A stretch of DNA of 64,000 nucleotides from Enterococcus montenegrensis. Lineage in GTDB: Bacteria; Bacillota; Bacilli; Lactobacillales; Enterococcaceae. The stretch is taken from NCBI RefSeq assembly GCF_029983095.1, contig NZ_CP120467.1, positions 1,472,501 through 1,536,500 of the forward strand. The letters are read 5' to 3'. This document shows, piece by piece, positions 44,715 to 47,458 of this stretch (position 1 is the stretch's first letter; each line of letters opens with the position of its first letter). The notes below the pieces were generated by a model. The model did no database searches, had not been told where the DNA came from, and saw nothing but the letters and a program-made list of their open reading frames with translations. Both the position numbers and the translations under genes were made by a program.

Positions 44715-44776
44715 AAAATCACCAGCTGGTATTTCTTACTCTTTTTAAAGACTAAGAAATACCAGCTGGTGATTTT
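44715..44776. terminator. Bidirectional terminator between MATE and PII-like genes
   Basis: A 24-base near-perfect stem (AAAATCACCAGCTGGTATTT side with its complement) sits between the two convergent genes, with A/T runs on both ends. Confidence 0.92.
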
Positions 44777-44789
44777 ACTTTTTACTAGA

Positions 44790-45158
44790 CTAATCTAATA
44801 ATTGATCCATATCGACTACTTTACGATAAGAATTGATTTCTGTGATTCCCATTACCTTATCAATATCAATACTAAAGCAAATTCCATTACCGGGCTCGCT
44901 AATTTTAATCCCTTTACCAATAGCATCCATTACTTCATTTGTTAAAGTATCTGGCACCAAAGTCAAAACAACATCTTTTTCAGGTTCAATTTCAATCCCG
45001 AAAAACTTTCCTTTATCATGAGAGCCAGATCCTTTACCATGAAGCAAAGTTCCGCCATTTGCTCCGGCTAATTTTGAATAATTAATGACCTCATCGCCAA
45101 TGCCACGGTCTACAATCGTAATAATCATCTCAAGGTTCAAAGCTACTGGTTTGTTCAT
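44790..45158 (-). CDS. PII-like signalling protein
   Basis: The 122-residue protein has the PII ferredoxin-like fold pattern (NLEMIITIVDRGIGDEVINYSKLAGANGGTLLHGKG ... VVLTLVPDTLTNEVMDAI). Its T-loop region (GKGSGSHDKGKFFGIEIEPEKD) differs from GlnB/GlnK and lacks the uridylylated tyrosine. PII proteins bind nucleotides and gate transporters or enzymes. Its ATG overlaps the stop of the DUF1538 gene before it by 4 bases (ATGA), tying it to that membrane system. Confidence 0.85.
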   Translation of the reverse strand: MNKPVALNLEMIITIVDRGIGDEVINYSKLAGANGGTLLHGKGSGSHDKGKFFGIEIEPEKDVVLTLVPDTLTNEVMDAIGKGIKISEPGNGICFSIDIDKVMGITEINSYRKVVDMDQLLD

Positions 45159-45910
45159 TTTTCAGCCTCCATTTTCACTGCTTTTTGTTCTGCTCTTTTT
45201 TTATAAATATATCCTAGTGCTAAGGTGGATAAAATCGGTGTTAAAGCAATTAAGGCCACCACACCAAAACCATCAATCAACGGGCTACGCCCTTCAATTT
45301 CAGCCGCAATAGCAACGGCCATTGATAAAATAAAGGTTGAACACATCGGTCCAGTCGCCACCCCGCCATTATCAAATGCCATGGCCAAAAACATTTTGTC
45401 AACTTTACGTCCCAAAATAAAGACTGCAATATAGCCCGGAATAAGAAAGTAATAAAGGCTAAATCCTGCCAGTAAACGCCACATCGACAAACTAACCGCT
45501 GCCCCAATTCCAAGCGACACGACAGCTAATAGTACCTTGCCGCGTACCGTTCCACCACTTTCTTCTTCCACTTGTTTGACCATCACGTGAATTGCAGGTT
45601 CAGCAAAGCCTACCAAAAAACCCATTAAAAATCCCAAGGGAATTAAAATCCAATTGTAATCCAGTTGTGCAATTTCACTTCCTAAATATTGCCCCACTGG
45701 CACATAAGCAATGTTAACACCATGCAAAAATAAAATTAACCCTACTGTCGTAATCAAAAAACCTTTTAAAATCTGACTGAATTTCTTTTTACTCAACTTA
45801 AAGCTGGTAAAATTTAACAAGACAAATAAAAAGACAATTGGAAAAATTGCAATTAAGACATCTTTAATCATTTCAGTGAAGCCGGTAAAGACTTGTTGTA
45901 AAAAAATCAT
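45155..45910 (-). CDS. DUF1538 membrane protein (second copy)
   Basis: The 251-residue protein has about seven membrane helices and the DUF1538 repeats GFLVGFAEPAIHVMVKQVEE and MAFDNGGVATGPMCSTFILSMAVAIA. The family has no proven function. The conserved glycine- and threonine-rich GGVxTGP loop inside the membrane looks like a substrate path (inference). It overlaps both the preceding DUF1538 gene and the following PII-like gene by 4 bases. Confidence 0.85.
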   Translation of the reverse strand: MIFLQQVFTGFTEMIKDVLIAIFPIVFLFVLLNFTSFKLSKKKFSQILKGFLITTVGLILFLHGVNIAYVPVGQYLGSEIAQLDYNWILIPLGFLMGFLVGFAEPAIHVMVKQVEEESGGTVRGKVLLAVVSLGIGAAVSLSMWRLLAGFSLYYFLIPGYIAVFILGRKVDKMFLAMAFDNGGVATGPMCSTFILSMAVAIAAEIEGRSPLIDGFGVVALIALTPILSTLALGYIYKKRAEQKAVKMEAEK

Positions 45911-46590
45911 TGGAAAATCACCCCCAAAACCATTACCGCAAGTATTGGACCTAAAGAAGAAACGCCTACCATACCAAAACTATCGTTTTCTCCTTTTCCT
46001 TGATGAATCATACTCGTCAACCCACTGGCCAATGCTAAAATAAACGGTACTGTAACCGGACCTGTGGTAACGCCGCCGGCATCAAAAGCGATCGGCATAA
46101 ATTCCGGGCTGGTAAAAAATGAGGCGATAAAGACTGCAACATAGCCAATTAACATCATGTGATAATAAGACAGACGAAACACTGTTCGTAACAAGGCAAA
46201 AGCCAGAAATATTCCCGTACCGACGCTTACTACCCCAATCAGAACAGCTTTAGTAATCGTACCCTCTGAGATTTCTGTCACTTGTTGTGCCAAAACCTGG
46301 ACAGAAGGCTCGGCAATTGTTATCCCGATGCCAATTGAAAAGCCCAGACTAATCATGATTGCTAAACTGCGGCGTTTGATCATATATTCCCCTACTAATT
46401 CGCCAACTCGCAACATCGAATATTCCGCACCAAATAAAAACAGCGTCATGCCAATCATCATAATTCCTGCCCCAACAATAAAAGTAGCCAGGTCTTCAAA
46501 AGGTAACGGCGCAAAAATAAAAGTCAAAATGACAATTAAAACTGTCATCGGTAAAATAGCAACAATCACTTCTTGAAAATTTTTTCGCAT
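45907..46590 (-). CDS. DUF1538 membrane protein (first copy)
   Basis: The 227-residue protein is a paralogue of the next gene: EPSVQVLAQQVTEISEGTITKAVLIGVVSVG and IAFDAGGVTTGPVTVPFILALASGLTS align with the second copy. The two may form a heterodimer, as larger DUF1538 proteins fuse two such units (recalled, not checked). I chose the ATG at 46590 after AAGGAGG. The longer frame upstream covers the ribosome binding site. Confidence 0.85.
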   Translation of the reverse strand: MRKNFQEVIVAILPMTVLIVILTFIFAPLPFEDLATFIVGAGIMMIGMTLFLFGAEYSMLRVGELVGEYMIKRRSLAIMISLGFSIGIGITIAEPSVQVLAQQVTEISEGTITKAVLIGVVSVGTGIFLAFALLRTVFRLSYYHMMLIGYVAVFIASFFTSPEFMPIAFDAGGVTTGPVTVPFILALASGLTSMIHQGKGENDSFGMVGVSSLGPILAVMVLGVIFQ

Positions 46591-46764
46591 ATGGTCCCTC
46601 CTTAAAAAAATTTTCGATACTTTTGCCAAAAAAGTACCTAATAATTTAAGTATACAATAAAATGACAAACAAAAAACAAAACCATGTCTATTTTTTAATG
46701 ATTATCACTTTTTCCTCATATATTTATTACGTAGCAGGCTTGTCTGCAAAAACAAAGCAAAAAA

Positions 46765-46825: not shown

Positions 46826-47458
46826 TTAATTATCTAAAATGGTTACTTGCACTTGTCGGCGGCCCCAAACATCACATTGTGCGGCTGTCGGAAAATGAAC
46901 GTCAATAATATTTCCTTGAATTGCAGAACCCGTATCAACTGCGTAGGCCTCGCCATAACCTTCAACATATAAATGGGTACCTAAAGGAATAACGCTAGGA
47001 TCAACGGCAACTGCCATCGGATTTTCCAAAAGATTTTGACCAGTCGCAGTCACTGTGCCTCCACCTAAAGCATCAGCCGGATCAGAGCTATATGCAGTTG
47101 ACTCCATCGTGATTGTACGACCAGAGTAGGCTGTATTCGTTGTTGCTGCTGAACTTTCTTCTTGGCTCGTTGTTTGATTAGCTGGTGCAGCAGTAGTGTC
47201 TGATGAAGTTGTAACATCTTTATCTGTATCAAATTTCAATACTTGTCCATCAATGATTAAATCAACGTTTGTAATTTTATTTGCTGTTGCAATTGCTTGA
47301 ACATGATCTGTGTCACCATAGTATTTCAAAGAGATACTTGTTAATGTATCTGAACTTGTAACGGTATGTTCAACTTCGGCGGCATTGGCATTAACACCAA
47401 AGGCTGCGACACCGGCTAGAATTGCTGTTGTTGCAAAAAGTGATTTTACTAATTTCAT
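46826..47458 (-). CDS. Secreted LysM and 3D-domain protein (YocH-like)
   Basis: The 210-residue protein has a signal peptide (1-26, ending NANA), one LysM domain (HTVTSSDTLTSISLKYYGD, about 32-76), a Thr/Ser/Ala-rich linker and a C-terminal 3D domain (MESTAYSS, IPLGTHLYVEGYGEAYAVDTGSAIQGNIIDVHF) with the three conserved aspartates. Such proteins are muralytic transglycosylase-like enzymes or stationary-phase factors at the cell wall. AAAGGAG precedes the ATG. A WalR-like box lies in the promoter region. Confidence 0.9.
   Translation of the reverse strand: MKLVKSLFATTAILAGVAAFGVNANAAEVEHTVTSSDTLTSISLKYYGDTDHVQAIATANKITNVDLIIDGQVLKFDTDKDVTTSSDTTAAPANQTTSQEESSAATTNTAYSGRTITMESTAYSSDPADALGGGTVTATGQNLLENPMAVAVDPSVIPLGTHLYVEGYGEAYAVDTGSAIQGNIIDVHFPTAAQCDVWGRRQVQVTILDN

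Follow-up and report, generated by a model that had tools for sequence, protein, structure and literature searches.

The 64,000-nucleotide stretch of Enterococcus montenegrensis contig NZ_CP120467.1 analyzed here (positions 1,472,501 to 1,536,500, assembly GCF_029983095.1; hereafter the window) raises the question of what a PII-like protein does when its gene follows two overlapping genes for DUF1538 membrane proteins and overlaps the second. The three genes lie on the minus strand in the order DUF1538-A (45907-46590; 227 amino acids), DUF1538-B (45155-45910; 251 amino acids) and the PII-like gene (44790-45158; 122 amino acids). As the initial annotation had reported, successive genes overlap by ATGA, at 45910-45907 (stop of A, start of B) and at 45158-45155 (stop of B, start of the PII-like gene). 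The start of DUF1538-A was taken as the ATG at 46590, rather than the TTG at 46668 chosen by the open reading frame (ORF) caller. Its ribosome-binding site is AAGGAGGG (46596-46603, minus strand), a possible site for DUF1538-B, GGGGGTGAT, lies within the end of A (45917-45925, minus strand), and the PII-like gene has GGAGG within the end of B (45166-45170, minus strand). Subunit B is 95% identical to proteins of E. dispar and E. canintestini. By analogy with characterized systems, we consider it probable that the trio encodes a DUF1538 cation/proton antiporter pair and its dedicated cytosolic PII-like regulator.

A survey for co-occurrence of the trio, as the initial annotation had suggested, found the genes together across many phyla of both bacteria and archaea. 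Among 300 Bacillota genomes, DUF1538 was present in 101 and the PII subfamily in 103; 100 genomes had both, one had only DUF1538, three had only the PII subfamily and 196 had neither. The subfamily was thus detected in 100 of the 101 genomes with DUF1538 versus 3 of the 199 without (Fisher p ~4e-75, uncorrected for relatedness). Because DUF1538-adjacent genes supplied the PII profile and the surveyed genomes are related to one another, these counts describe this PII subfamily and the p-value is nominal. Presence and absence were identical in 61 Lactobacillales genomes around the window, with 28 carrying both and 33 neither. Joint absence occurred within the genus of the window (G004, an 88% complete genome) and within genus g11, where one genome has both (G018) and another neither (G032). 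The co-occurrence in the 300 genomes and the identical distribution among the 61 relatives exclude a chance association of PII with DUF1538.

Gene neighborhoods gave the same picture. DUF1538 loci were read directly in 174 cases, 173 of which were informative, one locus stopping at a contig end. The PII gene was adjacent and co-oriented at 171 of the 173, downstream at 168 (median spacing of 19 bp from the stop of B to the start of the PII domain) and upstream at three. These loci occur in Bacillota, Caldiserica, Synergistaceae, Aminicenantes, Balneolaceae, Desulfobacterota, Alphaproteobacteria and methanogenic archaea, and 21 of 21 genomes of the last group were over the cut-off. Distances of the PII-like protein correlated with those of DUF1538-B (r = 0.67, a value reached by none of 500 permutations); the correlation between A and B was 0.89. 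Apart from antisense shadow ORFs and one cluster of generic ABC ATPases, the PII gene was the sole recurrent neighbor of DUF1538 loci, and no metabolic gene was co-localized. When the window and 62 related loci were scanned with Rfam, no riboswitch was detected upstream of DUF1538. At one locus, a cyclic di-AMP (c-di-AMP) riboswitch directly follows the second PII gene (L038:2913-3085) and probably leads the next gene; it was not used as evidence. In one Enterococcaceae genome, the PII-like gene is apparently frameshifted and the DUF1538 pair intact (G036:C1:1520202-1520566). The partnership is real and widely conserved, and it is unreported in the open-access literature that was searched, subscription journals being outside that search; five papers in this literature name DUF1538, and one of the five contains the letters 'pii' once, counting a match at any position within a word.

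The partnership takes several architectural forms. Unfused DUF1538 pairs were followed by one PII domain at 53 loci and by two at 40, while 71 of 75 fused pairs (about 500 amino acids) with downstream PII had two PII domains. Where two are present, it is the second that resembles the window's single domain, the first having diverged further. In the tandem PII fusions of Planococcaceae (L074-L076, L085, L087, and L103), this greater divergence of the first domain is clear and suggests that the two domains divide labor. Some Desulfobacterota loci and one of the Balneolaceae phylum combine longer fused pairs (630-736 amino acids) with arrays of about three PII-like domains. At L150 and L151 (phylum of L088, Desulfobacterota) and at L194/L201, fused pairs of this length bear extra soluble segments and are followed by proteins of 370-390 amino acids with about three PII-like domains. 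Another genome of the window's genus (G005, contigs C19 and C13) contains, besides the trio, a divergent second system made up of two PII genes and a fused DUF1538 pair.

The function of the pair can be approached through a distant relative, the one DUF1538 system studied in the papers searched. Both window proteins matched DUF1538 (PF07556) with 221.6 and 220.6 bits, well above the cut-off of 22.6. Work in 2017 established that UmpAB, a DUF1538 pair of Halomonas zhaodongensis, is a heterodimer and functions as a two-component Na+(Li+,K+)/H+ antiporter (PMC5484666); its antiport optimum is pH 9 and the two genes alone are active in E. coli (PMC5484666). The window pair shares with UmpAB the paired, overlapping genes for two homologous proteins, seven transmembrane helices in each and conserved acidic residues. 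In contrast, its scores against the UmpA and UmpB equivalog models (NF041627 and NF041628; 86.8-111.3 bits) are far under the cut-offs of 490 and 500, and by these scores it is a distant relative of UmpAB. The published system also differs in having been studied without any PII protein: the paper mentions none, and its 4.2-kb insert consisted of one truncated and three intact ORFs, with umpB listed last (PMC5484666). Two Desulfobacterota pairs nearer the UmpAB branch (304-355 bits to the UmpA/UmpB models) also carry the PII gene. The initial annotation had proposed a membrane transporter or channel controlled by the PII-like protein. The core of this proposal, a DUF1538 transporter served by its own PII-like protein, withstands the refuting condition set there, the trio being conserved across many phyla; the accompanying statement that the substrate is unknown needs amending, since a DUF1538 pair, albeit a distant relative, exchanges Na+, Li+ and K+ for protons.

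Because the window pair scores so far under the equivalog cut-offs, function need not carry over from UmpAB. The strongest competing explanation, which we nevertheless regard as unlikely, retains a PII-gated DUF1538 transporter but has most of the family moving a solute other than Na+ or K+, such as an organic solute or an anion, with the Halomonas activity being a specialized or side activity. Members are frequent in anaerobic gut Clostridia and in methanogens, beyond the halophiles, and neither a riboswitch nor a neighboring gene fixes the substrate, as this explanation would have it. However, both branches share the same conserved acidic residues, no metabolic gene is co-localized, and DUF1538, together with Mrp/Mnh and Kdp, belongs to the top 20 Pfam predictors of optimal growth pH (PMC13255231). 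We take the window pair as a putative alkali cation/proton antiporter.

The predicted architecture of the two subunits is consistent with such a transporter. Lysine and arginine residues were counted over the eight loops and termini of each subunit in 139 pairs, and all 139 had a positive-inside pattern in which A is oriented N-in/C-out and B is oriented N-out/C-in; A and B of the window, each with seven predicted transmembrane helices, have the same charge patterns. Because the charge patterns are opposite, each subunit has seven helices and direct A-B fusions exist, the subunits look like an antiparallel (inverted-repeat) heterodimer. The original UmpAB paper uses neither the word topology nor the word antiparallel (PMC5484666). 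The glutamate of the AEP motif and the aspartate of the FDxGG motif are 99-100% conserved in both subunits (E94 and D170 in A, E104 and D180 in B). In an AlphaFold model of a fused relative (predicted local distance difference test, pLDDT, 88; predicted template modeling score, pTM, 0.87), these residues coincide with predicted breaks of helices 3 and 6 and could plausibly form a cation/proton site. A Foldseek comparison of the fused-pair model with solved structures gave no significant match (best E 0.015, TM-score ~0.13), and a DUF1538 sequence profile found no homologue in the PDB. On the basis of this one Foldseek search of one model, the DUF1538 pair may have a fold that is not yet solved.

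The third protein belongs to the PII superfamily in fold but is divergent in sequence. Its score against P-II (PF00543), 24.6 bits, falls just under the cut-off of 25; no other Pfam model matches, and ten relatives at other DUF1538 loci score above the cut-off (28-43 bits). It is the only PF00543 match of its genome, which has one AmtB ammonium transporter gene (G000:C1:2123770-2124933) and no GlnB/GlnK-type PII. A single-chain AlphaFold model has the PII fold (pLDDT 82) with a short, uncertain T-loop. The top 50 PDB matches to this ferredoxin-like fold were all PII or PII-like proteins, including GlnK (E 1.8e-6 to 2.3e-5).

GlnB binds the phosphates of ATP with Lys90 and Arg101 and is uridylylated at Tyr51 of the T-loop. 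In a profile alignment with known PII proteins, Ile93 takes the place of Lys90 and a near-invariant Gly104 that of Arg101 in the PII-like protein, which retains the GGT, G-x-G, Lys61 and PGxGI-F elements. The loop was correctly described at the outset as unlike that of GlnB/GlnK and lacking the modified tyrosine: residues 42-60 contain no tyrosine, and the loop is about five residues shorter than that of Thermus thermophilus PII. Replacement of Lys90 and Arg101 and the shorter T-loop without Tyr51 rule out that the protein is a GlnB or GlnK. It likewise lacks the C-terminal CGPxGC redox loop of SbtB, having no cysteine past residue 94. The ligand, going by family membership, is at a guess an adenyl nucleotide.

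Comparison with known PII systems places the trio beside them rather than within them. It resembles AmtB-GlnK in being a conserved pairing of PII and transporter genes with a PII fold, and SbtA-SbtB in associating a divergent PII-like protein with a secondary transporter, but the transporters are unrelated in both cases and the T-loop, phosphate-site and C-terminal differences given above separate the PII partners. PstA/DarA, which binds c-di-AMP, is according to the literature another PII-like fold of Bacillota, but P-II is the only Pfam model that the window protein matches. PotN of Lentilactobacillus hilgardii (PDB 7o4x), also from a lactic acid bacterium, ranked 15 among the fold matches, although the sequence profile does not find it.

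In GlnK-AmtB and SbtB-SbtA, control comes from the cytosolic side, where a PII trimer plugs the transporter or locks it (PMC10710835, PMC10117731). By analogy, we infer that the PII-like protein binds or gates the DUF1538 pair. The two DUF1538 proteins would assemble as an antiparallel heterodimer of 7+7 helices, corresponding to a single chain of about 500 amino acids in many bacteria, and, like UmpAB, would carry out transmembrane exchange of Na+, K+ or Li+ against protons. Translational coupling would cause the PII-like protein to be made in step with the pair. It could then dock on the cytoplasmic face, where B presents its positively charged loops and C-terminus, and a bound nucleotide, probably adenyl, would decide antiporter switching, most likely by inhibition. 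Since UmpAB is active without PII, the PII-like protein would inhibit or modulate the antiporter and not be required by it.

Several observations weigh against this model. The two-gene UmpAB construct is active in E. coli (PMC5484666), so PII is not needed for activity, and such dispensability fits an inhibitor or modulator but also a protein with a separate function. The PII-gated transporters known so far are reportedly trimeric (PMC10710835), while UmpAB is described as a heterodimer. The relationship of the window pair to UmpAB is distant, and the relatedness of the surveyed genomes leaves the p-values nominal. One genome (G116) has DUF1538 without a member of the PII subfamily, and two DUF1538 loci (L079 and L100) have no PII gene despite several kb of downstream sequence; the genomes of these two retain just one strong PII match, which is GlnB-like. 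The PII-less L100 locus is followed by a gene whose product looks like a YitT-type membrane protein and ends in a soluble domain (L100:6822-7763).

An improbable alternative gives the PII-like protein a structural or assembly role in the complex in place of a ligand-driven switch. Near-obligate co-inheritance does resemble a subunit more than an optional regulator, and the ATP-phosphate residues of GlnB are absent, but in E. coli UmpA and UmpB by themselves gave a heterodimer that was active (PMC5484666), and GGT, G-x-G, Lys61 and PGxGI-F, all conserved in the PII fold, look like a retained ligand pocket. Action elsewhere, for example on AmtB or nitrogen enzymes, with a place beside DUF1538 just for shared expression, is very improbable: the protein is the sole PF00543 member of a genome with one AmtB, but that AmtB is about 600 kb away, the PII subfamily tracks DUF1538 over the 300 and the 61 genomes, and genomes such as G358 and G359 hold this PII in addition to stronger canonical PII matches.

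The flanks of the trio are occupied by genes of other kinds. Downstream, a perfect 24-bp inverted repeat (44715-44776, no strand; arms 44715-44738 and 44753-44776) sits between the convergent PII-like and MATE transporter genes. With A/T runs on both sides, it is probably a two-way terminator; a simple scan, which accepts only loops of 3-8, did not return it. Upstream of the trio (46826-47458) is a gene for a secreted protein with LysM and 3D domains, a probable cell-wall enzyme.

Taken as a whole, the proposal is that a dedicated PII subfamily, in a near-obligate partnership of bacteria and archaea, gates an antiparallel heterodimeric antiporter of unseen fold and ties nucleotide state to Na+, K+ and pH homeostasis; we give this full form about an even chance. 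Were a PII family dedicated to a Na+/K+-H+ antiporter, the reach of PII control would widen to ion and pH homeostasis, and UmpAB heterodimers would be expected either to form a trimer or to break the trimer rule. A function is also suggested for many proteins labeled 'P-II family nitrogen regulator', which are probably unrelated to nitrogen. If the proposal is true, salt and pH balance in the cell are governed directly by its metabolic state.
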